Shown one piece after another: positions 3,123-32,316 of a stretch of 32,365 nucleotides of DNA. Under the pieces are notes generated by a model that was not told the origin of the DNA, made no database searches, and saw only the letters and a list, made by a program, of their open reading frames with translations. Positions within the stretch are counted from its first letter, which is position 1; every line of letters starts with the position of its first letter. Where the stretch lies: IMG/VR virus record IMGVR_UViG_3300024306_000058, positions 1 to 32,365 of that record. One strand, given 5' to 3'. Source of the stretch: a virus. The position numbers and the translations under genes are program-made.

Positions 3123-3547
3123 CGACCCGCCGCGAGACAATCCTGGCCGCTGTGCGCACCGCTCTGACGGGCACCACGGGCGTGAGCACGCGGATCTACC
3201 GCAGCCGTGTTGAGCCGATGGCAAGGGCCGAGAGCCCGGCGATCGTGGTGGAGCCGGTGAGCGATACCGCCGAGCAGAACACCAGCCTGCCCACGCTGGA
3301 CTGGAGCCTGACGGTGCGGATCGCGGTGATCGTGCGTGGCGCCATCCCTGATCAGCTGGCCGATCCGATCGTGGAGGATCTGCACTCCAAGCTGATGGCA
3401 GATCTGACCCTAGGAGGAGTAGCGATGGACATCAGACCGCAGGCTGTGAATTTTGAGCTAGTCGAGGCTGATCAGCCAGCAGGTGTGATCAGCTGCGACT
3501 ACCTGATCCGCTACCGGACCGCTAACGCTAACCTCGCAACAGCGTGA
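3119..3547 (+). CDS. Tail terminator / minor tail protein U-like
   Basis: A 142-residue protein starting in an ATGA overlap with the head-tail joining gene. Pattern: a helical N-terminus (ETILAAVRTALTGTTGVSTRIYRSR), a central PAIVVEPVSD and a C-terminal strand-rich part ending SCDYLIRYRTA. This is the layout of tail terminator proteins, which cap the growing tail tube as a hexameric ring and bind the head-tail joining protein. In lambda the same position is filled by Z and U. The stop overlaps the next small gene as TGATG. The function comes mainly from order and fold pattern. Confidence 0.6.
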   Translation: MTTRRETILAAVRTALTGTTGVSTRIYRSRVEPMARAESPAIVVEPVSDTAEQNTSLPTLDWSLTVRIAVIVRGAIPDQLADPIVEDLHSKLMADLTLGGVAMDIRPQAVNFELVEADQPAGVISCDYLIRYRTANANLATA

Positions 3548-5289: not shown

Positions 5290-7854
5290 ATGGCGATGAA
5301 CATGGATGCCATGCTCCGCATCAAGGCGGACGTTGACGGGCAGAACAAGATCGTCGCGCTGAACCGCGGCCTGCAACAGGTGGGCACCACGGCCGCTGGT
5401 GTGACCGGCGCTATGCGGGGCATGACAGGCGCTGCAGCCGGCCTCTCCGGCGCGCTGGGCACCCTTGCCCCGCTGCTCAGTGCAGCCGGCCTGGCGAGCA
5501 TGGTGAAGGGCACACTGGAGGCCGGCGATCGCATGAACGATCTGGCGCAGTCCACCGGCGTATCGGTCGAGGCATTGAGCCGGTTCAACAAGGCCGCAGC
5601 GGTGAGCGGCACCAACCTTGAGGGCGTCAGCAAGGGTCTGGTCAAGCTGAACAAGGCAATGCTGGATGCTGCGACGGGCGGCAAAGCATCATCTGCCACG
5701 TTCAGCGCGCTGGGCATCAGCGTGAAGAACGCAGACGGCACGCTCAAGTCCGCCGATCAGGTGATGCTTGAGGTGGCCAACCGCTTCAAGGCGATGCCTG
5801 ACGGTGCGGCCAAGACGGCTTTGGCGCTCAGGCTGTTCGGCAAGTCCGGTGCGGAGCTGGTGCCGCTGCTCAACATGGGCGGCGATGCCATCGACAAGAT
5901 GAGCACCAAGATGACCACCGCCTTTGCGCAGAAGGCGGATGAGTACAACGACAAGCTGGCCATCCTCGGCGGCAAGGTTCGCGGCCTGGCGATGGATCTG
6001 ACCATCGCGCTGCTTCCGGCGCTGAACCAGATCACCGATGCGCTCACCGTGGTGGTGAGTGGCTTTAGCCAGCTGCCGGAGCCGCTGCAGGCTGCTGCCG
6101 TGGGTGCTGCCACCCTGGCGATCGCCTGGGGGCCGCTGACCGGCCTGCTCGGCGGCAGCGTCAAGCTGTTCGCCTCTGTGGCCAACGGGCTTGAGATCAT
6201 GCGTTATCAGAGCGCGCTGGCTGGTGGTGCCATCCCGATGATCACCGGCAACCTGCAGGCCATGAGCGCGGCGATCCTTGCTATCCCCGGCTGGGGATGG
6301 GCGCTGGCTGGTGTTGCTGCCCTGGGGCTGCTTAGCAAGGCGCTGTACGACAACAACGAAGGTTTCAGGAGCTGGGTCAACAACGTCGGCACGATCATCG
6401 CCAGCGACTTCCAGAACGCGATGAAGAACATGGTGGAACTGGGCTCTGCTGCTGCTCGCGGTGTCAGCCAAGCCTGGGATTGGCTCAAGGGCATGACTAG
6501 CAACGCTGCGGCGGCGATCGGCAACGCCTTCAGCGGGCCGTTCGGGTTCATCGCCAACGCTGCTAGCAGCGTGTTCGGCATTGTGCAGCGCAAGATCGCA
6601 GAACTGTGGAACAACATCCCTGCTCCGATCCGCAAGGCTCTGGGTCAAGCCGGTCAGATGGCGATCAACTCAACCCCGATTGGCTACATGGCGGGTGTGG
6701 GCGTTCGCGCTTTCCAGATGGGGCCGCAGCAGACGGTCAACCGGGCTGGTAAGGGCGACCTGCGGGGCGGCGGCGGCGGTGGCTTCACCCCCAACCTGAG
6801 CGCGCTGGAGGGCGGCGCTGGTGGTGGTGCCACGGCTGCAAAGGATGCGGCCGATAAAGCGCGGCAAGCACGCGAGGCGCTGCTGGCATCCAAGAACAAG
6901 CTGGATCAGGCCAAGGCCGAGCTGGCGCTGGTGCGCGAGCTGGACCCGATCAGGAAGATCGAGCTGGAGTATGAGGAGAAGCGCCGGGTGGTGCGCGCAG
7001 CTGCTGCTCAGGAGTTGAGCAAGGCGCTGACCATTGAGGAAGAGGCGAACATTCAGCGCACCCGCGCGATCGACCTCCAGCGCATTGGCGTGGAGGAAAC
7101 AAACGCGCTGAAGGACAAATACAAGGAGCTGGGCGAGGCAGCCTATGAGGCTGCGATGAATACCTCGATCTGGAGCAGCGCAGCGGAGGCAGCCAACGGC
7201 GCGATGGTTGGCTTCCGTGATGGCATCAGCTCCTACCTCGACAGCATCGGCACGCTGGGCGAAGGCATCAGCAACCTGACTCAGAACGCCATCAAGGGAC
7301 TGGAGGATGCGATCGTTTCGCTGACCACCACCGGGCAATTCAGCTTCAGGGAGTTTGCGCTTTCGATCGTGGAGGAAGTGACCCGCCTGGTCACCAGGTT
7401 GATGATCATCGCCCCGATCCTGCAGTGGCTACAGAACCTGCTGCCGGGCGGCGGCTTCCTGAGCGGTGCCGGTGCGCTTTCAGGCGGCAAGCTGTTCTCA
7501 GGCGGGATCTTCGCCAACGGTGGCGCCTTTGATCGCAACGGCCTGCAGGCATTTGCAATGGGTGGCGTGGTCAACCGCCCCACGATCTTCCCATTTGCCA
7601 ACGGTGGCGCCGGCCGCCTTGGCCTGATGGGCGAAGCCGGTCCTGAGGCAATCATCCCCCTAAAACGCGGCAGTGACGGCAGACTCGGCGTATCGGGCGG
7701 CGGCAGCACCAGCGTGGTGGTGAACGTGGATGCCAAGGGCACCACCGTGCAGGGTGACAACGGCCAAGGCCAGGCGCTCGGCCGTGCCATCAGTGCTGCT
7801 GTGCAGCAGGAGCTGATCAAACAACGCCGGCCTGGCGGCCTTCTCGCGGCATAA
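5290..7854 (+). CDS. Tape measure protein
   Basis: At 854 residues this is the second-longest gene here and sits after the G/GT pair. It is helical and Ala/Gly/Leu-rich. Residues 1-250 resemble the TP901-type tape measure core (GDRMNDLAQSTGVSVEALSR, ALRLFGKSGAELVPLL). A hydrophobic segment lies near 327-350 (PGWGWALAGVAALGLL) and another near 697-717. A Gly-rich linker near 495-515 is followed by a charged coiled coil to about 620. The C-terminus has the familiar GEAGPEAIIPLKRG motif near residue 780. Tape measures set tail length and enter the host envelope during DNA ejection. At the rule-of-thumb 0.15 nm per residue the tail would be about 125-130 nm. AGGAG supports the start at 5290. Confidence 0.92.
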   Translation: MAMNMDAMLRIKADVDGQNKIVALNRGLQQVGTTAAGVTGAMRGMTGAAAGLSGALGTLAPLLSAAGLASMVKGTLEAGDRMNDLAQSTGVSVEALSRFNKAAAVSGTNLEGVSKGLVKLNKAMLDAATGGKASSATFSALGISVKNADGTLKSADQVMLEVANRFKAMPDGAAKTALALRLFGKSGAELVPLLNMGGDAIDKMSTKMTTAFAQKADEYNDKLAILGGKVRGLAMDLTIALLPALNQITDALTVVVSGFSQLPEPLQAAAVGAATLAIAWGPLTGLLGGSVKLFASVANGLEIMRYQSALAGGAIPMITGNLQAMSAAILAIPGWGWALAGVAALGLLSKALYDNNEGFRSWVNNVGTIIASDFQNAMKNMVELGSAAARGVSQAWDWLKGMTSNAAAAIGNAFSGPFGFIANAASSVFGIVQRKIAELWNNIPAPIRKALGQAGQMAINSTPIGYMAGVGVRAFQMGPQQTVNRAGKGDLRGGGGGGFTPNLSALEGGAGGGATAAKDAADKARQAREALLASKNKLDQAKAELALVRELDPIRKIELEYEEKRRVVRAAAAQELSKALTIEEEANIQRTRAIDLQRIGVEETNALKDKYKELGEAAYEAAMNTSIWSSAAEAANGAMVGFRDGISSYLDSIGTLGEGISNLTQNAIKGLEDAIVSLTTTGQFSFREFALSIVEEVTRLVTRLMIIAPILQWLQNLLPGGGFLSGAGALSGGKLFSGGIFANGGAFDRNGLQAFAMGGVVNRPTIFPFANGGAGRLGLMGEAGPEAIIPLKRGSDGRLGVSGGGSTSVVVNVDAKGTTVQGDNGQGQALGRAISAAVQQELIKQRRPGGLLAA

Positions 7855-7857
7855 CCG

Positions 7858-8196
7858 ATGGCAACTTTCACCTACACACCAGATTTCGGCGCCACGCGCT
7901 CCAGCCGGCCAGCGGTCACCACTGTGAAGTTCGGTGATGGCTACGAGATGCGGCAGGCGACGGGAATTAATGCCGACCTCAAAAGCTGGACGCTGACTTT
8001 TGCGGCCCGCACCGACACCGAAGCCAATGCGATCGAGGCGTTCCTTGATGCACGCGCCGGTGTTGAGAGCTTCGACTGGACGGCGCCTAACGCTGCGGCC
8101 TCGCGGAAGTACGTCTGCCGCGAATGGCAGCGCACGCTGGATGCCTGCAACCTGAACACCATCCAGGCCACCTTCGACCAGCTGGCTGAACCATGA
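7858..8196 (+). CDS. Minor tail protein M-like
   Basis: A 112-residue protein starting MATFTYTPDFGATRSSRPAV, with VKFGDGYEMRQATGIN and a terminal NLNTIQATFDQ: the signature of lambda gpM-type minor tail proteins (Phage_min_tail family). These belong to the tail-tip initiator complex below the tape measure. The gene lies directly after the tape measure and its stop overlaps the L gene as ATGA. The order H-M-L-K-I-J is complete, which makes the call secure. Confidence 0.88.
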   Translation: MATFTYTPDFGATRSSRPAVTTVKFGDGYEMRQATGINADLKSWTLTFAARTDTEANAIEAFLDARAGVESFDWTAPNAAASRKYVCREWQRTLDACNLNTIQATFDQLAEP

Positions 8197-14214: not shown

Positions 14215-14634
14215 ATGCCAATCACAATTAACGGATCAGGCACCGTCACCGGCATCAGTGCTGGGGGATTGCCTGATGGTGTCATCACGACGGATGACAT
14301 TGCAGCTAATGCGGTCACGCTGGGCAAGATCGGCGCCACCGAGCAGGGTCAACTCTGCAAAGCCTGGGTGAACTTCAACGGCACTGGCACTGTGGCGATC
14401 AGGGCTAGCTTCAACGTGAGCAGCATTACTGATAACGGGACGGGGGACTATACGGTGAACTTCACGAACGCTTTGGCGGATGCAAATTACGTCGCTGTTG
14501 CCTTAGCAGATGGAGGAGGAGGTATCGCTAACTATGAACATTGGGGTGGTGGAGCAGGTGCTTACTCTTCTACCTTCTGGCGAGGCAGTATGGCTGCCGA
14601 TAAAGCTTTTTGTCACGCCGCAATTTTCCGCTAA
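14215..14634 (+). CDS. Short tail fibre-like protein
   Basis: A 139-residue protein with a strong AGGAGGT ribosome-binding site that overlaps the preceding stop codon. It begins MPITINGSGTVTGISAGGLP and carries DDIAANAVTLGKIG, a repeat-like anchor seen in many phage appendage proteins. The C-terminal domain (QLCKAWVNFNGTGTVAIRAS, DYTVNFTNALADANYVAVAL) is a small beta-sandwich type common at the ends of cyanophage and other phage fibres. It is likely a receptor-binding or decoration module. Codon use is slightly more AT-rich toward its end than in the tail genes upstream. Confidence 0.65.
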   Translation: MPITINGSGTVTGISAGGLPDGVITTDDIAANAVTLGKIGATEQGQLCKAWVNFNGTGTVAIRASFNVSSITDNGTGDYTVNFTNALADANYVAVALADGGGGIANYEHWGGGAGAYSSTFWRGSMAADKAFCHAAIFR

Positions 14635-14640
14635 CCCATC

Positions 14641-15054
14641 ATGAAACGAATCATCTACCCCACACCTGAAGGCGGCGTAGCGGTGATCATCCCCGCCGAG
14701 ACCGTCGAACTGGCACTGAAAGACGTGCCTGAAGGCGTCCCCTACGAGATCGTCGATGCTGACGAGATCCCCTCTGATCGCTTCTTCCGTGGCGCTTGGA
14801 CGATGGGTGACTGCTGCATCGAACACGACCTTGAGAAGTGCAAAGAGATCGGCCACCAGCATCGCCGTCAGCAACGCGCTGAAGAGTTCGCACCACACGA
14901 TGAAGTGATCGCTAAACAGATCCCCGGCGTGGATGCTGTGGAGGCTGAAGCAGCCCGTCAGCAGATCCGCGAGAAGTACGCCGCTGTGCAAGACGCGATT
15001 GAAGAGGCGTCTACCCCAGATGAAATCAAGGCTGCCCTGGAGGTGACCCCATGA
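14641..15054 (+). CDS. Tail fibre assembly chaperone-like protein
   Basis: A 137-residue charged, non-repetitive protein between fibre genes. It has the layout of tail-fibre assembly proteins: a short N-terminal sheet (IYPTPEGGVAVIIP), a DRFFRGAWTM segment, then a long helix (EKCKEIGHQHRRQQRAEEF, REKYAAVQDAIEEASTPDE). It contains Cys-Cys and Cys-x-His elements near residue 58-68. No Shine-Dalgarno is obvious. Its stop overlaps the next start as ATGA. Function is inferred from layout and place. Confidence 0.5.
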   Translation: MKRIIYPTPEGGVAVIIPAETVELALKDVPEGVPYEIVDADEIPSDRFFRGAWTMGDCCIEHDLEKCKEIGHQHRRQQRAEEFAPHDEVIAKQIPGVDAVEAEAARQQIREKYAAVQDAIEEASTPDEIKAALEVTP

Positions 15055-15686
15055 CACTCAGATTGAATGGATCAACATCGGGCTACACCGAGATCGACGC
15101 ACCGGCAGTAGCAGGCTCCAACACGCTGGTGCTGCCTGGTGGCAACGGCTCCGCTGATCAGGTGCTGGCAACCAACGGCAGCGGCACGCTCAGCTTCGTG
15201 GATCGTGGCCGGATGGTGCTGGAGACTGCCAAGGCATCAACCAGTGGCACCTCGATTGACTTCACCGGGATTCCGAGTTGGGTGAAGCGGGTGACGGTGA
15301 TGCTTAACGGGGTGAGCACGAATGGTACGAGCGTGGTACAGATTCAGCTTGGACATTCTGGTGGCATCGAAACTAGCGGTTATCTAGGCTCGGCTTCCTA
15401 TATCTCGTCAACTCTAAATACCACGGGCAGCACAAATCTTTCATCTGGCTTTATTACAACATTTGGCAGTGCTAGTAACATAAGACACGGTTCTATTGTA
15501 GTTCAAGCCATTTCTGGCAATATTTGGTCTGCAAATGGAGCCATTGGGTTGTCCGATATCGGCTCGGTGCAATTTACAACTGGCACTAAATCCCTCTCTG
15601 GCACCCTAGACCGCATCCGCATCACCACCGTGAACGGCACCGACACCTTTGACGCGGGGTCGATCAACATTCTCTACGAGGGCTGA
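15051..15686 (+). CDS. Tail fibre protein with AT-rich variable interior
   Basis: A 211-residue protein. The N-terminal 55 residues (MTLRLNGSTSGYTEIDAPAV, LVLPGGNGSADQVLATNGSG) are a fibre shaft/anchor module common in cyanophages, encoded by GC-rich DNA. From about 15340 to 15600 the DNA turns clearly AT-rich, with codons such as TTA, ATA and AAT that are rare in the tail genes, while the last 30 residues (LDRIRITTVNGTDTFDAGSI) return to GC-rich sequence. This suggests a swapped receptor-binding segment between conserved ends. It starts in an ATGA overlap. Confidence 0.7.
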   Translation: MTLRLNGSTSGYTEIDAPAVAGSNTLVLPGGNGSADQVLATNGSGTLSFVDRGRMVLETAKASTSGTSIDFTGIPSWVKRVTVMLNGVSTNGTSVVQIQLGHSGGIETSGYLGSASYISSTLNTTGSTNLSSGFITTFGSASNIRHGSIVVQAISGNIWSANGAIGLSDIGSVQFTTGTKSLSGTLDRIRITTVNGTDTFDAGSINILYEG

Positions 15687-15688
15687 TT

Positions 15689-16816
15689 ATGAGCACCTTA
15701 AAAACAACCAACCTTCAAAACCCTTCAGCAGGCTCACCAGCGATTGTGCTGGCGTCTGATGGCACGGCAACAGCTCAGCTCAGCAGCATCAACGGTGGAC
15801 CGCTGGCTGGGGCGAGGAATCGCATCATCAATGGGGATATGAAGATTGATCAAAGGAATGCTGGAGCGAGTGTGACAGTTAATGTTGCAAGCAGCGTTTT
15901 TTCAGTAGATAGATGGTTTGGATATGGTCAAGCAACTGACGGCGTATTTACATTGCAGCAATCAACGGATACTCCAGCAGGATTTGTAAACTCATTAAAA
16001 GCAACTGTTACTACGGCAGATGCTTCTATTGGAGCGAGTCAAATCTATTTGCTTACTCAGATTGTTGAGGCAAACAACATTGATGATCTTGATTGGGGCA
16101 AAGCAACCGCAAAATCAGCAACGCTTTCTTTCTGGGTTAAATCTTCACTTACTGGAACGTTTGGTGGCTCCATAACAAACAACAGTAACTTCTCATATCC
16201 ATTTTCTTATTCCATTTCGGCTGCTAATACTTGGGAATACAAAACAGTCTCAGTCACGGGTCCAACAAGTGGTACCTGGGGAACAGGGGTAAATGCTGGT
16301 TTAACTGTTCGACTGGCATTAGGAGCAGGGTCTTCTCAAGTTGGTACGGCAGGTGCTTGGACTGGAAGCCATTTATTTGGTGTAACAGGTCAAGTTAATG
16401 TCATTGGCACTCTTAACGCCACCTTCTACATCACCGGCGTGCAACTTGAAGCCGGCAGCGTCGCCACCCCATTTGAGCGCAGGAGCTACGGGCAGGAGCT
16501 GGCGTTGTGTCAGAGGTATTATTTCAAAAACACCTATTGGGGTCAGGGCAACGGCGATACTACAAACATTGCCAATGTTAATGTAACTTTGCCAGTTACA
16601 ATGAGGGCTCAGCCGTCAGTGACTAACGATGCCGACACAAACGGCATTGCCGCAAATGGCAACCTTTACAATTTGACAGCAGCATCTGCTCAAATTCAAA
16701 ATGGTTGGTGGTGGGGACACCACGGGTATGTAAGTATAACTACAAATGCTCAAATCACTAGGTGGACTGCTTGTTCCGCCAGAATTTTAAACTTTCAAGC
16801 CTCTGCTGAGCTGTGA
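15689..16816 (+). CDS. Large tail fibre protein, mosaic
   Basis: A 375-residue protein. Residues 1-60 carry the anchor ILASDGTATAQLS-type segment and RNRIINGDMKIDQRNAG, which recurs in fibres of diverse phages. The middle (about 60-240) is a carbohydrate-binding-like beta sandwich (VDRWFGYGQ, ATLSFWVKSSLTGTFGGS). The phrase FYITGVQLEAGSVATPFERR near residue 250 and QELALCQRYYFK mark the conserved end of that domain, and a variable C-terminal part follows. DNA for the middle and the last 250 bases is AT-rich, while both conserved joints are GC-rich. It is probably the main adhesin; no catalytic residues are recognised. Confidence 0.75.
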   Translation: MSTLKTTNLQNPSAGSPAIVLASDGTATAQLSSINGGPLAGARNRIINGDMKIDQRNAGASVTVNVASSVFSVDRWFGYGQATDGVFTLQQSTDTPAGFVNSLKATVTTADASIGASQIYLLTQIVEANNIDDLDWGKATAKSATLSFWVKSSLTGTFGGSITNNSNFSYPFSYSISAANTWEYKTVSVTGPTSGTWGTGVNAGLTVRLALGAGSSQVGTAGAWTGSHLFGVTGQVNVIGTLNATFYITGVQLEAGSVATPFERRSYGQELALCQRYYFKNTYWGQGNGDTTNIANVNVTLPVTMRAQPSVTNDADTNGIAANGNLYNLTAASAQIQNGWWWGHHGYVSITTNAQITRWTACSARILNFQASAEL

Positions 16817-16818
16817 TT

Positions 16819-17088
16819 ATGTCTTACACCTACCAACTGATCGCTCCAGTCGGCGGCTTTGCTGAAGTCACCTCAGTCCGCCGCTCTGACGGCTGGGCAA
16901 TCCCCTTCGACCCCGCCAACACCGACTACCAGGCGTACCTGGAGTGGGTCGCTGCCGGCAACACCCCCTTGCCTGCCCCTGAACCCGAACCAGCCCCAGT
17001 GCTCACCACTGAGCAGAAGCTCGAGGCTGCGGGCCTCACCGTGGCGGAGCTGCGCGAGCTGTTCGGCCTCCCTGCCCCTGACGCCTGA
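16819..17088 (+). CDS. Small fibre-associated protein, unknown
   Basis: An 89-residue protein after the large fibre gene. The start is ATG 16819; a GTG six bases earlier overlaps the previous stop and is an alternative. It has an N-terminal strand region (YTYQLIAPVGGFAEVTSVRR), the pattern IPFDPANTDYQAYLEWVAAG, a Pro/Glu linker and a C-terminal helix TEQKLEAAGLTVAELRELFG. This layout is common in short proteins next to phage fibres and could be a fibre chaperone, but function is unproven. Its stop overlaps the next start as TGATG. Confidence 0.65.
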   Translation: MSYTYQLIAPVGGFAEVTSVRRSDGWAIPFDPANTDYQAYLEWVAAGNTPLPAPEPEPAPVLTTEQKLEAAGLTVAELRELFGLPAPDA

Positions 17089-17698: not shown

Positions 17699-18781
17699 AT
17701 GGCCAACACCGCGCCGATCACGCTTGAGCAGCTGTTTCGGTTCTATCGCGGGCTGCCACACCAGGCTGCTGCCATCCAGCAGCTGGAGCAGGATCTCGCG
17801 GTGAACGGCTACGCAGCAGCAATGCGGCGCGATCGGGCATGGTTCAACACCTGGAGCCAAGACGGCAAGCAGGCTGACCTCGGCGCGGCCCTGAAGCTCA
17901 TTCAAGAGTTCGAGGGCTGCCACCTCGATGCCTACCCCGATCCGGCCAGCGGTGGCGCACCGTGGACGATCGGCTGGGGCACCACGCGCTACAGCGACGG
18001 CCGGCCGGTGCAGAAGGGTGATCGGATCAACCGCGTCGAGGCCGACATGCTGCTGCGGCAGGAGGTGGATCAGATCGCCGGCAAGCTCCGCAGCACCATC
18101 CCCTACTGGGTGGAGATGACCGATGCGCAGAAGTGCGCGCTCATCAGCTTCGCCTACAACCTCGGCTCTGGGTTTTACGGCGCCAAAGGTTTCGAGACCA
18201 TCAGCAAGCGGCTGCGCGAAAAGGACTGGGCCGGTGTGCCCGATGCCCTGCTGCTCTACCGCAACCCTGGCACCAACGTTGAGGCCGGCCTCAAGCGGCG
18301 CCGCATCGCAGAAGGTGACCTGTGGGGCCGCGAGCGGCAGACCAGCGGGCCCATCGAGGCGATGTTCACGCCTGAAAGCCCGTTCTCGCATCGCATCACC
18401 CCGCACATCACCTACGGCGAGTTTGCGCTCGGCCAAGAGGCGCGCAGATTCGACCATCAGCACCAGTGCGATACAGCGCTGAAGCTGGCGCAGTTTCTCG
18501 AGAAGGTGCGCGCGCAGTTCGGTGGCCGGCCGGTGGTAATCACCTCGGGCTATCGCAACGCTCAGGTCAATCGCCAAGTAGGCGGGGCAAGCCAGTCGGA
18601 GCACCTTTACAGCCGCCCCATGGAAGGGGCTGTGGACTTTGTGATTGACGGAGTTGACATGATGGCCGTGCAAGCTTGGTGCGATCGCGAATGGCCGTTC
18701 TCGCTGGGCTATGCGGCACCGCAGTTCATTCATCTTGGACGCCGCTCTGACGGTCAACGCCGTCGCTGGGACTACGCCTAA
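17699..18781 (+). CDS. Two-domain endolysin: GH24-type lysozyme plus M15-like peptidase
   Basis: A 360-residue lysis enzyme. Residues 60-212 form a T4-lysozyme-type muramidase: Glu72 in EFEGCHLDAYPDP, Asp81 and Thr90 in WTIGWGTT form the catalytic set, followed by CALISFAYNLGSG. Residues 230-360 resemble the M15-type metallopeptidase fold: GYRNAQVNRQVGGASQSEH places His302 as a zinc ligand, with Asp313 (GAVDF) and His345 (FIHLG) as the others. His302 and Asp313 are 11 apart, four more than in the usual SxHxxGxAxD motif. No signal peptide or membrane helix is visible, so a holin is needed. The first 50 residues are unassigned. It should cut both glycan and peptide bonds. Confidence 0.88.
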   Translation: MANTAPITLEQLFRFYRGLPHQAAAIQQLEQDLAVNGYAAAMRRDRAWFNTWSQDGKQADLGAALKLIQEFEGCHLDAYPDPASGGAPWTIGWGTTRYSDGRPVQKGDRINRVEADMLLRQEVDQIAGKLRSTIPYWVEMTDAQKCALISFAYNLGSGFYGAKGFETISKRLREKDWAGVPDALLLYRNPGTNVEAGLKRRRIAEGDLWGRERQTSGPIEAMFTPESPFSHRITPHITYGEFALGQEARRFDHQHQCDTALKLAQFLEKVRAQFGGRPVVITSGYRNAQVNRQVGGASQSEHLYSRPMEGAVDFVIDGVDMMAVQAWCDREWPFSLGYAAPQFIHLGRRSDGQRRRWDYA

Positions 18782-24180: not shown

Positions 24181-24404
24181 GGTCTCGGTTGATTGGGTGG
24201 ATTGTTTGGCATCCCGCGCAGGTTCCGAAGCTCATACGCCTCGACCTCCGCGACGGGATACAGCACGCGGCCTCCGATCTTGACGAACCTCGGCCCACGG
24301 TTCTGGCTGCGCCAGTTGTCGAGCGTGCTCAGCGTGACGACACCACGCCACCGCTCAGCCAGCTCACGCGGCTGGAGATAACCAGCCTCAGAAGATTTCG
24401 TCAT
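24177..24404 (-). CDS. Excisionase/AlpA-like HTH protein
   Basis: A 75-residue protein. YLQPRELAERWRGVVTLSTL followed by DNWRSQNRGPRFVKIGGRVL and YPVAEVEAYEL is the HTH_17 pattern shared by excisionases and AlpA-type regulators: a turn helix, a recognition helix, and a wing ending with P..EVEAY. The start at ATG 24404 overlaps the RecT-like end by 17 bases. It may be an excisionase or an operon regulator. No integrase is visible, so excision cannot be claimed. Confidence 0.75.
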   Translation of the reverse strand: MTKSSEAGYLQPRELAERWRGVVTLSTLDNWRSQNRGPRFVKIGGRVLYPVAEVEAYELRNLRGMPNNPPNQPRP

Positions 24405-25062
24405 CAAGCACTCCCTCCTTCTCCTCTACTGTCGCCGTCTTGGCGATCTTCTGGTTCAACTCTTCAATGCTGGCCTTCACCGGCGCCTCGGTGATCGTCA
24501 CCGGCTCCACGTCGAGCACCTCCTCCTGCGTCTGGATGCCCACCAGCAGCTCCGGGATGTACAGCCGGCCCCAGAAGGCCGCGGCGCGATACCGGATCAT
24601 CAGCTCGGGCATGGTCTGCCACTTGCTGCCGCTTTTGGTGGCCCAGCCTTCCTTCTTGGCCATCGCCATGCTCACGGTCGGACCCTTGAGATCCTTCCCG
24701 CTGCTCAGCTCGGTGGCCTCGCAGTAGCAGGCCATGCTGTCGCCCTCGCCGCTGATCTCATACCGCAGCGGGCTGAAGCGCCCGCAGCCGTTGATCAGGC
24801 CGATGATGAACTGGCTCGACCAGCTCGGCCGGCCGTGGATGATGTGGAGATTTTGGACAACAACGAAGGGTGACATCCGCATTCGATGCGCAATCTCTAA
24901 GGCAACCAAGCAGTTTGCAAAGCCTGCTTGCCCTTGGAACTGCGGCGGCACCAGCGTGGAACTGGCAAGCGACTTGGCCATCCGTTGCGCGTCCTCGAAC
25001 GCCGCGATGCCGCTAAAGGCTGAGCCGTTGGTGGTCGTGAGTGCTGTGGACTGATCAGACAT
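24388..25062 (-). CDS. RecT-family single-strand annealing protein
   Basis: A 224-residue protein. The core, FEDAQRMAKSLASSTLVPPQ, ANCLVALEIAHRMRMSPFVV, VQNLHIIHGRPSWSSQFIIG and MIRYRAAAFWGRLYIPELL, matches RecT-type annealases, including the conserved WSSQF and R.RAA.FWGR blocks. They coat 3' single strands made by the partner exonuclease and anneal them to homologous DNA. ATG 25062 starts the protein, overlapping the HNH stop by eight bases; a longer start at 25077 is less likely. The last 20 residues are acidic and end LDDEIF. An HNH gene now separates it from its exonuclease partner. Confidence 0.9.
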   Translation of the reverse strand: MSDQSTALTTTNGSAFSGIAAFEDAQRMAKSLASSTLVPPQFQGQAGFANCLVALEIAHRMRMSPFVVVQNLHIIHGRPSWSSQFIIGLINGCGRFSPLRYEISGEGDSMACYCEATELSSGKDLKGPTVSMAMAKKEGWATKSGSKWQTMPELMIRYRAAAFWGRLYIPELLVGIQTQEEVLDVEPVTITEAPVKASIEELNQKIAKTATVEEKEGVLDDEIF

Positions 25063-25534
25063 GAGCGTATTCACCAAAAAGTTGGGTTTTGGCTGCAGCG
25101 TGCGCAGCTCTTGCCTCCTCGGCGGTGTCGAACATGCCGAGGTGAACGCAGGTGCGGTCTTTGTAGACGTAAGCCTGAAACCTGCCAGACGACTTCCGCT
25201 GGTGGATGCCGTTCGTGAACTTGTTTGCGCAGTTTTGGCTGCGGGTAGCTAGTCGCAGGTTTTCGGGGCGATTGTTGGTTTTGTCGCGGTCGATGTGGTC
25301 AACGTCGAAATCGCCAGGATCGGCACAGTTACAGATTGCCCAGATGATGCGATGTGCCAAGAAGGACACGCCGCAAATCCTGACAGCCAGATAGCCGCCA
25401 CGCATGGGTGACCCGACAGGATCGCCCGCTTTGCGGCCACCGCCAGCATTGAGCTTGCGAATTAGGGTGCTATCGCTGCGCACCGCAAACCTGCGGCGCA
25501 ACTCTGTGATTGGTGGAAGCGGTTTGGCTTTCAT
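25055..25534 (-). CDS. HNH homing-type endonuclease with AP2-like end
   Basis: A 159-residue protein. The HNH_3 centre is GDFDVDHIDRDKTNNRPENL with RLATRSQNCANK: His80 with Asp79 in VDHID, Asn88 and Asn92, and the typical NLR.AT..QN ending. The C-terminal part GRFQAYVYKDRTCVHLGMFD followed by TAEEARAAHAAA is the AP2-like DNA-binding module often fused to such nucleases. This pairing is typical of free-standing homing endonucleases. It lies between the RecE- and RecT-like genes with almost no spare DNA on either side, three bases after the first and overlapping the second. Confidence 0.88.
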   Translation of the reverse strand: MKAKPLPPITELRRRFAVRSDSTLIRKLNAGGGRKAGDPVGSPMRGGYLAVRICGVSFLAHRIIWAICNCADPGDFDVDHIDRDKTNNRPENLRLATRSQNCANKFTNGIHQRKSSGRFQAYVYKDRTCVHLGMFDTAEEARAAHAAAKTQLFGEYAHV

Positions 25535-25536
25535 GG

Positions 25537-26415
25537 TCAGAAGGTCTCGATCTCGGTGATGGTGGGCATGGATCCATCCGGCCGCGGCCGCATCCAAGGC
25601 GGCAGGCTGATGGTCTCGATCTGGTCGCTGTAACCAGGCCAGCTGTTGGCGGCCTTGCAGGCGGCCAGCGTCTCAAGGTCGAGCCGCGCCTGCTTGGTGC
25701 CGGCCACCACCATCTCCACGTCTGCGGCATAGACCGCGACTGCATGGGGTGGTTTCTTCTCCACCACGATGAAGATGAACTGATCCGGGCACTGGCCTGT
25801 CGCCTGCGTCAGCCCGCCCAGATACCAGCTGGCCTGGACGTGATACCGCCAGTTGGCGATCGACTTCCTGAAGCCTGCCGGGCTCGCATCCTCAGTGGTC
25901 TTGAGGTCCACGATCAGGCTGCCGTCATCGGTCAGCCAATCCGGCCGGCATTTGCACTGCAGACCCGTGGCCTCATCGGTCCACATGTGCGTGGTCTCAG
26001 CCTTGCCTGGCAACGCCAGCAGCATCGCAGCAGCAGGGTGGCGGAACACAGAGTGCGCCATCGCCATCACCTGATCGGCGTCGGCCTTGCTGATCACCGT
26101 CCGGCCGGTGGCAGCCACGCTGAAGGCTTCCCATTCCGCCTTCCCTTGCTTGGTGCGGCGGTCGATGCCCTCCGGCGCCATCACATAACGCTGGTCCCAC
26201 TGGTCCAGCTCTAAGACGTGGGTGTGCAGTGCAGTGCCGATCAGCATCGCTGGCGTCGGCTCAGGCTCCACCCGGTTCGGGTCCAGATACCGCGCCCAGT
26301 AATGCAGCGGGCTGCGTGCCACCAGATCGAGGTGGCTTTTCGATACCGCGCTGTGGCGGTGGTATTCGGCGTTCTCCAATCCCTCCCAGTCTTCGGGGCT
26401 CTCAGAGCTTACCAT
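25537..26415 (-). CDS. RecE-like / PD-(D/E)XK exonuclease
   Basis: A 292-residue nuclease of the DUF3799/RecE C-terminal type. NAEYHRHSAVSKSHLDLVAR and GTALHTHVLE are the family's N-terminal motifs. Asp159 (CKCRPDWL), Asp170 and Lys172 (LIVDLKTTED) form the metal site, and YHVQASWYLGG supplies the conserved Gln. It digests 5' strands of double-stranded ends to load the RecT-like protein. GGGAGG five bases before ATG 26415 decides the start; the frame extends to 26559 but the extra 48 residues overlap the helicase gene. The C-terminus is ITEIETF. Confidence 0.88.
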   Translation of the reverse strand: MVSSESPEDWEGLENAEYHRHSAVSKSHLDLVARSPLHYWARYLDPNRVEPEPTPAMLIGTALHTHVLELDQWDQRYVMAPEGIDRRTKQGKAEWEAFSVAATGRTVISKADADQVMAMAHSVFRHPAAAMLLALPGKAETTHMWTDEATGLQCKCRPDWLTDDGSLIVDLKTTEDASPAGFRKSIANWRYHVQASWYLGGLTQATGQCPDQFIFIVVEKKPPHAVAVYAADVEMVVAGTKQARLDLETLAACKAANSWPGYSDQIETISLPPWMRPRPDGSMPTITEIETF

Positions 26416-26517
26416 TGGTTCCTCCCTTGTCACTCCTCTTCCCGCTAAGCCACTGAAATCATTTGGCTTTCCGGGCTTCGACTCGGATACCACTACGGCG
26501 ATCTCGGGTCTAGTCCA
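26416..26517. promoter_or_regulatory. Divergent promoter region, recombination versus replication operons
   Basis: A 102-base gap between the leftward RecE-like operon and the rightward helicase operon. On the plus strand TTGGCT and GATACC with 17 bases between could be a weak promoter for the helicase. The minus strand has the strong GGGAGG ribosome-binding site of the exonuclease (26421-26426). No clear operator repeat was seen. Promoters are expected here from gene arrangement; the exact boxes are uncertain. Confidence 0.3.
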
Positions 26518-27903
26518 ATGAGTCTCACTCTCCGTCACTACCAACAGCGCGCTGTTCACGATCTCCGCCTCGCCTTCCGCGATGGCGCACGCGCTCCGTT
26601 GTTTGTCATGTGCACCGGAGGAGGCAAGACAATCGTCATGGCCGAAATTCTCCGTTCACTGGCGACCCGCGGCCGCAGCGCCTTTGTCCTGGTCCACCGC
26701 CGTGAACTGATCGCCCAGACCAGCCACAAGCTGGACCTGGCCGGTGTCGAGCACGGCATCATCGCCGCTGGTCACCCTGGTGCAAATGCACCAATTCAGG
26801 TCGCATCTGTGCAAACGCTCGCCCGCAGGCTGGAGCGTGTCACCACCTCCCCCGATCTGATCCTGATTGATGAGGCGCACCACGCCACCGCAGGCAGCTG
26901 GGCAAGCGTGATCGGCCACTGGCCTGATGCCCTCCGCCTTGGAGTCACCGCTACCCCCGTTCGACTGGATGGTCGCGGCCTGTCGGCAGTCTTCGACCGC
27001 CTTGTTCTCGGCCCGTCTGTCGCGGACCTTGTTTTTCTGGGCTATCTCAGCCCGGCGAGGATCTACGCGCCTCCCGTGCGTGCAGATCTGAACAGACTCG
27101 CCAAACGTGCAGGCGATTTCGCAGCGGGGGATTGCGCTGAGCGCATGGATCGCCCCACCGTCATCGGTAATGCAATCGAGCATTACCGGCGCCTGGCCGC
27201 TGGGCAGCGCGCGATCGCGTTCTGCTGCACCGTTCAGCACGCAGAGCACGTCGCTGGATCGTTCCGCGCAGCAGGCATCGCCGCGGCCACGCTGCTGGGC
27301 TCATCACCAGATCGTGATCAGATCGTGAACCGCTTCGCCACCGGCGAGCTGCAGGTGCTGGTCACCGTCGATGTGGTCTCCGAAGGCTTCGACATCCCGG
27401 CCGCCAGCTGCGCCATCTTGCTGCGCCCCACCGCCAGCCTCGGCCTCTACCTGCAGCAGGTTGGCCGCGTACTCAGGCCAGCACCAGGCAAGCAGTCAGC
27501 AGTGATCCTCGATCACGTCGGCAACGTCCACCGGCATGGCTTCCCCGATGATCCGCGCGACTGGTCGCTGGACGATCGCCTCCGCTCTGGCCGCGGTGGT
27601 GGCCAGGCAGCGCCATCAGTGCGCACCTGCCCCAGCTGCTTCGCTGCGTTCAAGCCGGCGCCCACCTGCCCTGTGTGCGGCGCAGCATGTGCGCCACCAC
27701 CCAAGCAGCTCCGCCAGGTGGATGGTGAGCTGCGCGAGCTGAAGCGCACCGCCAAGGTGATCGAGTTCGAAGAGCGCCACGCCAAGCGCACTGAAGTCGG
27801 TCGCGCTCGCACTCTCACGCAGCTGCTCCAGGTCGCTAAGAACCGCGGCTACTCGCCCGGATGGGCCTATCGGATCCACAATGCGCGCAGCCGATCAGCC
27901 TGA
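26518..27903 (+). CDS. SF2 DEAH-box helicase
   Basis: A 461-residue helicase. The motifs appear in order: Q-like RHYQQRAV at the N-terminus, Walker A MCTGGGKT at 31-38, LVHRRELIAQ, DEAH at 118-121 (LILIDEAHHA), GVTATPVRLDG, and the C-terminal RecA domain with VSEGFDIPAASCAILLRPT and motif VI QQVGRVLRP near 315. After about residue 365 two CxxC pairs (RTCPSCFAAF, PTCPVCGAAC) form a probable zinc ribbon, followed by a charged helix. This is the phage type of XPB/RecQ-neighbouring helicase often found with VRR-NUC nucleases. It is the first gene of the replication operon; its end overlaps the nuclease start. Confidence 0.9.
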   Translation: MSLTLRHYQQRAVHDLRLAFRDGARAPLFVMCTGGGKTIVMAEILRSLATRGRSAFVLVHRRELIAQTSHKLDLAGVEHGIIAAGHPGANAPIQVASVQTLARRLERVTTSPDLILIDEAHHATAGSWASVIGHWPDALRLGVTATPVRLDGRGLSAVFDRLVLGPSVADLVFLGYLSPARIYAPPVRADLNRLAKRAGDFAAGDCAERMDRPTVIGNAIEHYRRLAAGQRAIAFCCTVQHAEHVAGSFRAAGIAAATLLGSSPDRDQIVNRFATGELQVLVTVDVVSEGFDIPAASCAILLRPTASLGLYLQQVGRVLRPAPGKQSAVILDHVGNVHRHGFPDDPRDWSLDDRLRSGRGGGQAAPSVRTCPSCFAAFKPAPTCPVCGAACAPPPKQLRQVDGELRELKRTAKVIEFEERHAKRTEVGRARTLTQLLQVAKNRGYSPGWAYRIHNARSRSA

Positions 27904-28445: not shown

Positions 28446-28798
28446 CGGAGTGCCCGCAAGGTGATTGCCCACTGCGAGCTGGCATGGAAGCTGTCAAGCA
28501 TTGCCACCGTATGCAATGCGGCCTCAGCCTTTCCCTAGAAGGTTCCGATCGCTTCAAGCGCAAGATGCGCGCCCAACTGGCGGACCTGATCACCGCCGAT
28601 GTGCTCTATCAGGCATACACCGGCGAGGAGGACATCTACAAACTCGATCGCATCCGCGGATGTTCAATTAACGATCCACTGATCACCAATGCTGCCAAAC
28701 ATTGGCCGGATCGTCTTCGCGCGCTCGAGGCCAAACGCAAGCAAGAAATAGAAGACAACCGCCTCGCAGTTCAGCAGTACACGCTCGGCCTTTTCTGA
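28442..28798 (+). CDS. 118-residue Cys-rich unknown protein
   Basis: Starts in an ATGA overlap with the RHH gene and ends in a TGATG junction with the primase. The N-terminus MTECPQGDCPLRAGMEAVKH followed by CHRMQC holds Cys4, Cys9, Cys21, Cys26 and two His, a possible metal site. The rest is helical and charged (ADLITADVLYQAYTGEEDIY, RLRALEAKRKQEIEDNRLAV). Position between regulator and primase suggests a replication accessory role. No family is recognised. Confidence 0.65.
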   Translation: MTECPQGDCPLRAGMEAVKHCHRMQCGLSLSLEGSDRFKRKMRAQLADLITADVLYQAYTGEEDIYKLDRIRGCSINDPLITNAAKHWPDRLRALEAKRKQEIEDNRLAVQQYTLGLF

Positions 28799-31314
28799 TG
28801 ACCCGCATCACAGATCTCGCTATCGGCCACTGGCCGTCAATCCTTGGCGCCCTTGCTGGTCTCTCCAGCGATCAGCTCACTGACAAGCATCAGCCCTGCC
28901 CGCTGTGCGGTGGTGAGGATCGCTATCGCTTCGACGACCAAGACGGCTCCGGCTCCTGGTTCTGCAATCAGTGCGGCGGCAAGAACCAGTCCGGTGGTGC
29001 CGGCAATGGCATGGATCTCCTCCTTCGCCGCACCGGCTGGACCTTTGCCGAAGCAGCCAAGCGCATCGAGCAGCACCTCGGCATCGCCCCGCAGCGCCCA
29101 ACACCTCCAACCAAGGGCGCCGAGAACGTCTGGCGCTACAGCGACAGCTTCCTGGTCTGCCGCTTCCCCGGCAAGAAGATCCGCCCCCTTTGGTGGTCCG
29201 GCAGCCGCTGGGAATGGAAGGCCCCACCAGCGCCTCGACCGCTGCTCAACCTCGACCAGCTGCGCAGTCGCACCGGCACCGTCCTCATCGTTGAAGGCGA
29301 GAAGGCAGCCGATGCAGCAGCCAAGCTCTACCCCCGCGCTGTCGTCACCACCTGGCCATCAGGTTGCAAGGCGATCGACAAGGCTGACTGGTCACCACTG
29401 GCCGGCCGTCGCGTCATCCTCTGGCCTGATGCTGATGCCGTTGGCCAGCAGGCTATGGATCGCCTCGCGCAGCTGCTGCTCCGCCTCCCCGTCGATCGCG
29501 TGCAGATGGTCACCCCACCAGCAGGCTCACCTGAAGGCTGGGATCTGGCTGATGCCACCTGGACGCCAGAGGAGGCCGCGGCCTACATCAAGGCCAACCT
29601 TTCCTCTTTCCTCGAGCTGGATCCTGAGCTGCCCGAGCAGCCGGAACTGCAGGGCGAGCCCGACACCGAGCCGGACCTTCCCGATCTCGATGCAAATCGC
29701 CATTTCACCTGCCTCGGTTTCGATGGTGATGCCTACTACTACCGCCCGCACAACACCGGCCAGGTGGTGCGCCTCACCCGCGCATCGCACACCTCAACCA
29801 ACCTGGTCTCTCTTGCCGGTCTGAAGTATTGGCGCGAGCTATGCCCGACTGATCGTGGTGGCGTTGACTGGACAAAGGCCGCATCCATGCTGTTTGCGAT
29901 CAACGCTGAACGTGGCTTCTACAACCCCGATCGGATCCGCGGCCGCGGCGCATGGTGGGATGAGAAGCGCACCATCCTTCACCTCGGTGATGAGCTGGTG
30001 GTCGATGGCAAGCGTCACCCCGTTCTTAAACCCTTCAAGTCGAAATACCTCTACCAGCGCATGTCAGAGCTGGAGGGGCCGGGCTCAACCAAGCCGCTGA
30101 GCGATGCCGAGGCCCTCGTTATCTGCGAGCTGGCCGAACGCTTCCACTGGGAGGTGCCAGCATCCGGCCTGCTCCTCGCCGGTTGGGTCACCCTTGCGCC
30201 GATCTGCGGCGCCCTCCCCTGGCGGCCGCACGCTTGGCTCACTGCAGCAGCTGGATCCGGCAAGTCCGCCATCCTCGATCGCTACGTCGCCATCCTGCTC
30301 GGTGACATGGGCCTCATCGTTGCCGGCAACACCACTGAGGCCGGCCTCCGCCAGACCCTCCGCTGTGATGCTCTGCCTGTTGTGTTCGATGAGGCCGAGT
30401 CCAACGAGAAGGCCGATCAGGTGCGGATGCAGAACATCCTCGCGCTGGCTCGTGTTGCGTCCAGTGAGTCTCACGCAACCATGCTCAAGGGCAGCCCCGG
30501 TGGTGATGTCACCCGCTTCAACATCCGCTCGATGTTCCTGATGTCATCCATCGCCACCGCTCTCAAGCAGGGCGCCGATCGCAGCCGCTTCGCTCAGCTC
30601 ACCCTGCGCTCACCGAACGAGTTGCCCAAGGCCGAGCGCATCGCCCACTGGGAGCAGCTGGACCGCGATCTCGATCGCCACATCACCAACGAGACAGCTC
30701 GCAGGCTCATCGCGCGCACCGTTTCGCTGATCCCCACCATCCGCGCCAGCGTCCGCATCTTCACCAAGGCCGCGGCTGAACATTTCGACTCGCAGCGCCT
30801 CGGTGATCAGTACGGCACCCTCCTCGCCGGCGCGTGGTCGCTGATGTCCAGCGAGGTGCCCACACCAGAGCAGGCGCGCACCCTCATCGATCAGAACGAT
30901 TGGGAGCCCTACAGCCAAACCACTGAGGTGCCCGATGAGCAACGCTGCATCCAGCGCATCCTCCAACATCAGGTCCGAGTTGAGACTGATGAGAAAACCG
31001 TCACCCGCACCCTGGGTGAGCTGGTCGAGATCGTCGGCCACACCATGAACGACATGGACGTGTCCAGCCGCCAGGCTCAGGAGAGCCTCGGGAGGCATGG
31101 TCTGCGGGTCGATAAGGACGCCGATCAGCTGCTGGTCAGCAACACCGCCGAGGCGTTGGCATCGATCCTGCGTGACACCCCCTGGTCTCACAGTTGGGCA
31201 ACAGTGCTCGGCCGCTTGCCCGGTGCGAGCAAGGCAGGGGCCACCCGTTTCAGGGGTGTGGGGGCCATCTCCAGGGCGATTGCGTTACGGATTTCGGCCT
31301 TGCAACGGGGGTGA
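28798..31314 (+). CDS. Primase-helicase: zinc ribbon, TOPRIM and ATPase domains
   Basis: An 838-residue replication protein. Residues 30-62 form the primase zinc ribbon with Cys34, Cys37, Cys56, Cys59 (CPLCGGEDRYRFDD, WFCNQCGG). Residues 160-225 are a TOPRIM domain (VLIVEGEKAADAAAKLYPRA; Glu166, and Asp211/Asp213 in ILWPDADAVGQQA). A C-terminal P-loop ATPase from about 470 has TAAAGSGKSAILDRY near 482 and VVFDEAESNEKADQ near 525, resembling plasmid and phage helicase domains. TGATG coupling fixes the start at 28798; the upstream in-frame start at 28702 is rejected. It probably unwinds and primes at the adjacent origin-like tract. Confidence 0.9.
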   Translation: MTRITDLAIGHWPSILGALAGLSSDQLTDKHQPCPLCGGEDRYRFDDQDGSGSWFCNQCGGKNQSGGAGNGMDLLLRRTGWTFAEAAKRIEQHLGIAPQRPTPPTKGAENVWRYSDSFLVCRFPGKKIRPLWWSGSRWEWKAPPAPRPLLNLDQLRSRTGTVLIVEGEKAADAAAKLYPRAVVTTWPSGCKAIDKADWSPLAGRRVILWPDADAVGQQAMDRLAQLLLRLPVDRVQMVTPPAGSPEGWDLADATWTPEEAAAYIKANLSSFLELDPELPEQPELQGEPDTEPDLPDLDANRHFTCLGFDGDAYYYRPHNTGQVVRLTRASHTSTNLVSLAGLKYWRELCPTDRGGVDWTKAASMLFAINAERGFYNPDRIRGRGAWWDEKRTILHLGDELVVDGKRHPVLKPFKSKYLYQRMSELEGPGSTKPLSDAEALVICELAERFHWEVPASGLLLAGWVTLAPICGALPWRPHAWLTAAAGSGKSAILDRYVAILLGDMGLIVAGNTTEAGLRQTLRCDALPVVFDEAESNEKADQVRMQNILALARVASSESHATMLKGSPGGDVTRFNIRSMFLMSSIATALKQGADRSRFAQLTLRSPNELPKAERIAHWEQLDRDLDRHITNETARRLIARTVSLIPTIRASVRIFTKAAAEHFDSQRLGDQYGTLLAGAWSLMSSEVPTPEQARTLIDQNDWEPYSQTTEVPDEQRCIQRILQHQVRVETDEKTVTRTLGELVEIVGHTMNDMDVSSRQAQESLGRHGLRVDKDADQLLVSNTAEALASILRDTPWSHSWATVLGRLPGASKAGATRFRGVGAISRAIALRISALQRG

Positions 31315-31571
31315 AACAGGGGCTGTTACGGCTCAAATCCCTTGCGCTGCAACGGGTTAGCAAAAAGCGTAACGGTGTAACGGTTTTTGGCCGACATACT
31401 CTCTCTCTCTTACAGAGAGACATGTGTGTGTGAACCCTCTTAGACCCCCCTTTATAAATAATTCTATTCTTAAAAATAGTTGTTACATGGTTACGGGGGG
31501 CTCAGACCCGCTGCCCCGCAATCGGTCTTGATGTAACACCCCCTGTTACGCAGGCGTTACAAGCGTGACGG
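31283..31571. other. Putative replication origin with GTTAC iterons and AT-rich core
   Basis: A tract of 312 bases without a gene (31315-31626), which the repeats enter from the end of the primase gene. The pentamer GTTAC occurs at 31284, 31325, 31482, 31490, 31545 and 31556, and its complement GTAAC at 31369, 31377 and 31533, mostly as [CT]GTTAC[GA] or GTAACGG. Nine copies in 277 bases compare with roughly one expected. TGTAACA-CCCCC-TGTTACG (31532-31550) forms a hairpin. A core at 31451-31480 has only 3 G/C in 30 bases, in an otherwise GC-rich genome. Iterons plus an unwinding element beside a primase gene fit an origin. Confidence 0.6.
31399..31432. repeat. Dinucleotide repeats (CT)6 and (TG)5 with hairpin
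   Basis: (CT)6 at 31399-31410 is followed by GAGAGA (31415-31420), so TCTCTC-TTACA-GAGAGA can form a 6-bp hairpin, and then by (TG)5 at 31423-31432. It lies inside the origin-like tract, between the iterons and the AT-rich core. Such tracts can ease strand opening or stop a transcript from the primase operon, but no T run follows directly. Confidence 0.6.
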
Positions 31572-31626
31572 TCAAGCTCACGCCATTTCGCTTCCTTGGC
31601 TCGGCCTCCCTGCCTACCCTTGGCGC

Positions 31627-32316
31627 ATGGCGACCCTCACCCTCGACATCCAGTCAGAGCTGCCCAAGGCCATCAGGTGGACCGACACCATGACCAAGCA
31701 GCTTCCCTTCGCCATCAGCCAGGCGCTCAACGCCTCAGCGTTCGACGTGCGCACCGCACTCAACGGCGCCACCCGCCAATACTTCGACAAGCCCAACAAG
31801 TTCACACAGTCCGCCTTCCTGGTGCAGAAGACCAACAAGCGGGAGCTGGAGGCCAAGGTCTTCGCCAACGATCAGCAGGGCCGTGACCGCGCGCGTTACC
31901 TGCGCTTCGGCATCCATGGTGGTGCTCGACCGCAGAAGGGCTTCGAGCGCAAGTTCCTCGCTGAGATTGTGGGCACGCGCACTATCCCCGCAGGCGCACA
32001 GCTGCAGCCCACATCGCTGGTCAAGCGCGATGGCTCGGGCAACGTGAGCCTCAGCACCATCAAGCGCATCCAGAAGGGACTGAACGGCAACGCACGCGGT
32101 GGCTTCTTTGTTGGCACACCCAAGGGCGGCGATCGCCCGGCCGGTATCTACCGCCGCAGCCGCGAGCAGCTGTTCCCCTACTTCATCGCCACCGAGCAGC
32201 GCAGCAGGTATCGGCCACGCTTCCCAATGGCTGAGATCGGCTCCAAGGCCGTTCAGCGTCGATTTGGGGACTACCTACGCAGCAGCCTCGAGAAGGCCGT
32301 TGCAAGCGCACGCTGA
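31627..32316 (+). CDS. Virion protein, gpZ-like tail/neck component
   Basis: A 229-residue basic protein. The N-terminal half reads LPFAISQALNASAFDVRTAL, then QYFDKPNKFTQSAFLVQK and RARYLRFGIHGGARPQKGF, a pattern of phage minor virion proteins. The end, RYRPRFPMAEIGSKAVQRRF, resembles lambda gpZ (KNRYPIDVVKIPMA.PL..AF in my memory). GpZ is needed to complete the tail end joined to the head. Here it lies alone between the origin-like tract and the presumed cos end, not with the other tail genes. It may also be an unrelated head protein. Confidence 0.45.
   Translation: MATLTLDIQSELPKAIRWTDTMTKQLPFAISQALNASAFDVRTALNGATRQYFDKPNKFTQSAFLVQKTNKRELEAKVFANDQQGRDRARYLRFGIHGGARPQKGFERKFLAEIVGTRTIPAGAQLQPTSLVKRDGSGNVSLSTIKRIQKGLNGNARGGFFVGTPKGGDRPAGIYRRSREQLFPYFIATEQRSRYRPRFPMAEIGSKAVQRRFGDYLRSSLEKAVASAR

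Follow-up and report, generated by a model that had tools for sequence, protein, structure and literature searches.

In a tailed phage of picocyanobacteria, the 277-bp repeat tract at the 3' end of the primase-helicase gene is likely a replication origin, bound by the primase-helicase encoded upstream. Both binding and origin activity are inferred, as no experiment was performed. Gene and tract lie in a 32,365-bp viral record (the window, meaning the whole stretch of DNA analysed) that also encodes an endolysin and has tail genes of lambda-like type; its replication region includes a VRR-NUC protein and a helicase besides the primase. Inverted iteron groups flank an AT-rich core 3' of the primase-helicase in about 180 distinct relatives, most of them phages or prophage-like loci of picocyanobacteria. 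Within each lineage the iterons have changed in concert, and this change is associated with a single primase residue, 849, and the C-terminal hairpin to which it belongs.

Iteron array and primase-helicase of the window

GTTAC/GTAAC pentamers occur nine times in the tract, at 31284, 31325, 31369, 31377, 31482, 31490, 31533, 31545 and 31556, spanning 277 bp (31284–31560). When the whole window was shuffled 300 times with dinucleotide content preserved, the densest 277-bp stretch held no more than three, placing the observed cluster far above chance. Only three of the 30 bases in the AT-rich core (31451–31480) are G or C; among the 32,335 30-mers of the window, so few are found only in those starting at 31451 and 31452. 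A first-pass annotation made from sequence alone had reported nine pentamers in 277 bases, GTAACGG and TGTTACG variants (two of each in the tract), a 30-base core with three G/C, and repeats beginning within the primase 3' end. All of these held: the exact positions were confirmed and iteron 1 lies inside the ORF. The inverted pair with a CCCCC loop that it described as a hairpin is also present (GTAACA-CCCCC-TGTTAC, 31533–31549). Its arms are, however, two iterons facing each other, and other lineages retain the facing pair with a different loop, which makes it probable that the hairpin as such is incidental. Iteron orientation was inferred from relatives with non-palindromic iterons, giving the layout F F - R R - core - F F - R - F F (F, forward; R, reverse). 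The features are as follows.

28702–31314, plus strand: primase-helicase ORF, 870 aa from TTG; likelier start ATG at 28798, giving 838 aa
30919–31140, plus strand: predicted winged-helix-like region, aa ~740–813 (AF2 model of aa 640–870)
31228–31290, plus strand: predicted C-terminal beta-hairpin, aa 843–863 (AF2 strands 843–849 and 856–863)
31246–31248, plus strand: codon CGT of Arg849, the position that follows iteron base 5
31284–31288, plus strand (forward): iteron 1, within the primase ORF
31325–31329, plus strand (forward): iteron 2
31369–31373, minus strand (reverse): iteron 3
31377–31381, minus strand (reverse): iteron 4
31451–31480, no strand: AT-rich core, candidate unwinding element and lowest-G+C 30-mer of the window
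31482–31486, plus strand (forward): iteron 5
31490–31494, plus strand (forward): iteron 6
31533–31537, minus strand (reverse): iteron 7
31545–31549, plus strand (forward): iteron 8
31556–31560, plus strand (forward): iteron 9, followed by a degenerate copy, GTGAC, in 31561–31572

The tract is intergenic and upstream of other genes. An Rfam search of 30900–32000 returned no match. Stem-loops within the two spacers were rejected as a candidate element: many arrays contain TTGCGCTGCAA-like palindromes, yet none form in the left spacers of L057 and L067.

The primase ORF, whose stop codon ends at 31314, comprises a zinc ribbon, a Toprim domain, a D5-like AAA+ helicase and a predicted C-terminal DNA-binding region. 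Pfam assigned a T7-like zinc ribbon (Zn_Ribbon_Prim, 4e-16) and, weakly and under the curated cut-off, Toprim (9e-4). No confident Pfam family was obtained for the helicase part, and no HUH family was among the matches to the ORF. The ORF matched phrog_35358 (DNA primase) at 3e-145 across aa 319–860, and its Walker A region (G518–S522) is conserved. Foldseek with a whole-protein AF2 model retrieved AsfvPrimPol, the NrS-1 CTR, D5/E5 and SaPI PriRep1 (7pds) at E-values of 2.5e-7 to 4e-5, together with the T7 primase fragment 1nui (6e-5).

The last 231 residues (aa 640–870) were modelled separately, with a pLDDT of 90. The predicted helix-strand pattern is winged-helix-like, with helix 745–755, strands, helices 771–778 and 789–798, and strands 801–804 and 809–813. 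This C-terminal region gave no significant PDB fold match and only two confident matches in a viral structure library. PDB sequence searches with the C-terminal and full profiles returned only weak Toprim and P-loop matches.

Other features of the window were also recorded. No Rep protein was found among the ORFs scanned, which did not include every ORF. An endolysin ORF (17699–18781) carries phage lysozyme and peptidase M15 domains. G+C falls from ~63% to 49–52% at 14500–17000, covering a tail-fibre-like gene (15689–16816), which suggests acquired DNA. On the minus strand at 24388–26559, a RecT-like ORF just under the Pfam cut-off lies near a DUF3799 PD-(D/E)XK nuclease, and the two likely constitute a recombination pair.

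Array conservation and residue 849 in relatives

Scans of IMG/VR and GTDB genomes yielded several hundred loci, the majority from environmental phage contigs or from genomes of Synechococcus, Cyanobium and Vulcanococcus; a Bdellovibrio primase used as scan seed matched nothing but itself. The first 80 loci comprised two main classes, one with GTTAC arrays of near-identical spacing and one with none. Reading the latter by eye revealed an array in the equivalent place, every copy being GTTAGG, GTAAGA, GTGAGA or GTGAGG. Between lineages, the iteron sequence changes in all copies together, and the types seen were GTTAC, GTCAC, GTTCC, GTCCC, GTTAGG, GTGAGG, GTATGG, GTAAGA, GTGAGA, GTATGA, GTTAGA and GTAAT. 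A common layout, FFF-RRR-core-FF-R-FFF, could be read in the non-palindromic lineages and is retained over several iteron types. Most relatives with other iteron types likewise have a low-GC core between the half-arrays. The cluster is the only one in each of the nine genomes or records compared, with 9–13 copies against no more than three elsewhere. Primase loci in the Synechococcus, Cyanobium and Vulcanococcus genomes (L162–L194) often carry shorter or weaker arrays, such as GTCAC in five copies; these host-genome loci could be prophages or domesticated elements.

The gene following the tract in the window encodes a minor tail protein (phrog_1924). Across lineages the product of the gene after the array varies between a tail protein, a sliding clamp, an RHH-like protein and a PD-(D/E)XK nuclease, and hence no downstream protein is constantly adjacent. 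In L081 (6969–8006) and in phage S-H1 (L082, MK105819; 18187–19236) the array is followed at a short distance by a gene for the sliding clamp of DNA polymerase III; the S-H1 array occupies ~17.65–17.98 kb of its record.

Primase tails share the pattern xXF[KR]G....SRAV.IP, in which X (position 849) sorts with the iteron. This rule was recorded before further loci were fetched and was then applied to 63 new ones. Unrestricted typing of base 5 covered 182 distinct arrays, 167 of them clear. Arginine at 849 accompanied GTnnC in 100/100 loci. Tryptophan and tyrosine both accompanied GTnnG (30/30 and 16/16), with base 6 mostly G for tryptophan and mostly A for tyrosine. Histidine was found with GTnnG in 14 loci (base 6 mostly A) and with GTnnT in seven; the latter class was unforeseen and broadens the rule for histidine. 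For arrays under the count threshold, the pattern of 849 versus iteron holds where readable. An early typing scheme limited to C or G at base 5 had missed the histidine/GTAAT arrays L242, L244 and L245 and was replaced by the unrestricted one.

Column 849 ranked first of ~840 for base 5 and explained all base-5 entropy in the first set. The next-best column explained 0.78 and lies in the same hairpin; the ranking after 849 was 861, 853, 571 and, in fifth place, 856. Independent phylogenetic contrasts for base 5, on trees built without the C-terminal part, agreed in 7/7 cases (p = 0.016), and in 8/8 with more rows (p = 0.008). The base-6 contrasts (tryptophan versus tyrosine or histidine) agreed in 4/4 cases (p = 0.125), too few for significance. 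L236 (tyrosine, GTATGA) and L253 (tryptophan, GTATGG), both among the 63 new loci, are largely alike in the hairpin and share the core GTATG. A whole-protein Mantel scan had placed its top windows at aa 811–870 (partial r 0.25–0.40). As this signal was moderate and confounded by relatedness, the scan was replaced by the per-column and tree-based tests. Contact between residue 849 and iteron bases 5–6 is an inference, for which there are no binding data.

Exceptions and cassette exchange

Locus L330 carries a chimeric array (~5690–5990), with GTGAGA left of the AT core, GTTAC right of it, and tyrosine at the 849 position; it is either a natural recombinant or an assembly chimera. The 849 code is broken by Pararheinheimera phage KLER1-1 (L386; 37.6% identical), which combines arginine with GTAAGC/GTTAGC-type repeats at 7670–8100. 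Serratia phage MQ-4 (L086) has 15 GTTAC copies and an AT-rich core at 6300–6600, 1.7 kb downstream of the primase, with lysine at X. Acinetobacter phage Acjo_20 (L385) has 11 copies and an AT-rich core at 3130–3450, 3 kb before the primase end, with arginine. The array can therefore lie apart from the gene 3' end. No array was found in the stretch searched around the primase gene of the distant phages ZRG1, PBb001, Dolphis and Mwe-JY13. In Synechococcus phage MinM1 (L389), a 12-copy GTGAG array (~7690–7930) directly follows a helicase gene of ~25% identity. The MinM1 helicase has a different C terminus, and a CHC2 zinc-finger gene is separate; this is the same origin style with a different protein arrangement.

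The main confounder of the 849 association is the position of the hairpin codons right beside the array: recombination may move both without any contact between them. Natural recombinants do swap the C-terminal domain and array as a cassette, reader and address together. L152 and L146 share ~93% DNA identity in the flanks on both sides, against 0.44–0.59 across the C-terminal domain and array. Their low-identity stretch runs from ~240 bp before to ~240 bp after the match end, with shoulders at 0.78 and 0.69. The L081/L103 pair shows a milder form of this exchange. Inside the exchanged part, a perfect match to the iteron is confined to one column and is not shared by the columns around it. This sharpness disfavours pure linkage and is the sole argument against it.

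Proposed origin assignment, rival explanations and known systems

The first-pass annotation had proposed a probable origin recognised by the primase-helicase itself. This is supported and remains the best-supported reading, since array and layout are conserved in ~180 relatives, the iterons change in concert and the change tracks residue 849; binding and firing are inferred. Its suggestion of a self-contained primase-origin module fits the natural swaps of C-terminal domain and array. The GC-skew check it had put forward gave partial support, in the window's clade only. In the window and two clade-mate phages, the array and the skew minimum are ~1 kb apart, although in the window the minimum sits at the record edge. 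In other clades, among the genomes and records compared, skew minima were not at the array, and GC skew was rejected as general proof of an origin.

In the proposed mechanism, iteron binding would depend on the winged-helix-like region and the terminal beta-hairpin of the primase-helicase. With the enzyme bound to both inverted half-arrays, two helicase rings would be loaded at the AT-rich core, which the enzyme would melt before priming replication. Helicase loading on binding, ring assembly and replication start at the array are inferred by analogy to SaPI Rep and SaPI origins. A bolder reading invokes a two-part code, in which residue 849 would read bases 5–6 and the hairpin loop bases 3–4. 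Origin identity would then change by concerted iteron change and cassette swap, perhaps driven by competition from other phages or from satellites. We regard this extension as tentative, the balance tipping slightly against it.

The primase-helicase could also read the iterons while the array serves mainly to regulate transcription of the next operon or to partition the genome, with replication starting elsewhere. The intergenic position upstream of other genes and the displaced skew minima of several clades are compatible with this. However, inverted half-arrays, an AT-rich core and a helicase as likely reader resemble known origins (PMC7581432, PMC9894130), and the genes after the array vary so widely that a conserved operator for them is improbable. 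We consider this alternative unlikely. Less likely still, a separate regulator could use the repeats as its operators; the RHH-like protein whose gene follows the array in some relatives would be a candidate. A weak RHH/NikA-like match lies just 3' of the array in L052 and a NikA-like one in L070. Against this, the next gene encodes a tail protein in the window and a sliding clamp or PD-(D/E)XK nuclease in others, and iteron type follows residue 849 regardless of the next gene.

Packaging and attachment sites also have short repeats and AT-rich DNA. An assignment of the tract to either, or to a chance cluster, can nevertheless be almost entirely dismissed: the shuffles rule against chance, and concerted change tied to a primase residue is unexpected for packaging or attachment sites. 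An origin bound by the upstream primase-helicase thus remains our preferred reading.

This reading has precedents. The C-terminal domain of SaPI Rep recognises an iteron origin just 3' of its gene (PMC7581432), and SaPI origins have oppositely oriented repeats on which two head-to-head helicases are loaded (PMC9894130). As in SaPI Rep/PriRep1 and SCCmec Cch2 self-loading helicases (PMC7581432, PMC9894130), a D5-type AAA+ helicase is here joined to a C-terminal DNA-binding part, which in our case is inferred. As in SaPI origins, short iterons in opposite orientations directly follow the gene, with an AT-rich core between the groups. Unlike SaPI Rep and Cch2, the present proteins belong to tailed phages and prophage-like loci of picocyanobacteria and carry an N-terminally fused T7-like zinc-ribbon/Toprim primase. 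A single protein family also spans more than ten iteron types, tied to one residue. The window is not a satellite island, having its own tail and lysis genes, and the likeness is one of working mode only.

P4 alpha, which reads origin repeats, similarly unites Toprim primase, helicase and C-terminal DNA binding (here inferred) in one protein (PMC4234260). It differs in that the C-terminal domain studied here has no PDB structural match and its array adjoins the gene. No crr-like second element was seen, each of the nine genomes or records having one iteron cluster, although other sequences were not sought. pRN1 ORF904 is also a primase-helicase with a C-terminal winged helix (here predicted and winged-helix-like) and an origin 3' of its gene, but that origin is a large stem-loop without iterons and the primase is of the archaeo-eukaryotic type (PMC4234260).

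In PLE RepA of Vibrio cholerae satellites, DNA-binding domain and origin likewise covary and are swapped as a module, and cognate pairing was shown experimentally; RepA is, however, a RepA_N initiator with ~30-bp semi-palindromic iterons and two specificity groups (PMC8263062). Geminivirus Rep shares the use of 5–6-base iterons whose positions are retained while their sequence varies between relatives. It is an unrelated rolling-circle Rep of plant ssDNA viruses, so the likeness is in behaviour only, and the requirement of iteron identity for geminivirus replication has been questioned (PMC12548392).

SaPI Rep thus already provides an example of an initiator recognising an iteron origin 3' of its own gene, and P4 alpha one of origin-repeat binding, so the module is not new in kind; exchange of reader and origin is also known from PLE RepA (PMC8263062). 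A search of the open-access literature, which leaves most subscription papers outside, found neither this origin nor an iteron code for phage primase-helicases described. Environmental cyanophages known mostly from sequence gain a precise, testable origin and initiator. The relatives provide many natural variants of one initiator-origin pair, including the near-minimal pairs L236/L253, L081/L071 (tryptophan in both, with GTGAGG and GTTAGG respectively) and L152/L146, in which a shift of protein-DNA specificity at a dozen sites simultaneously can be examined directly. If the association reflects recognition, one residue could predict much of phage origin type.
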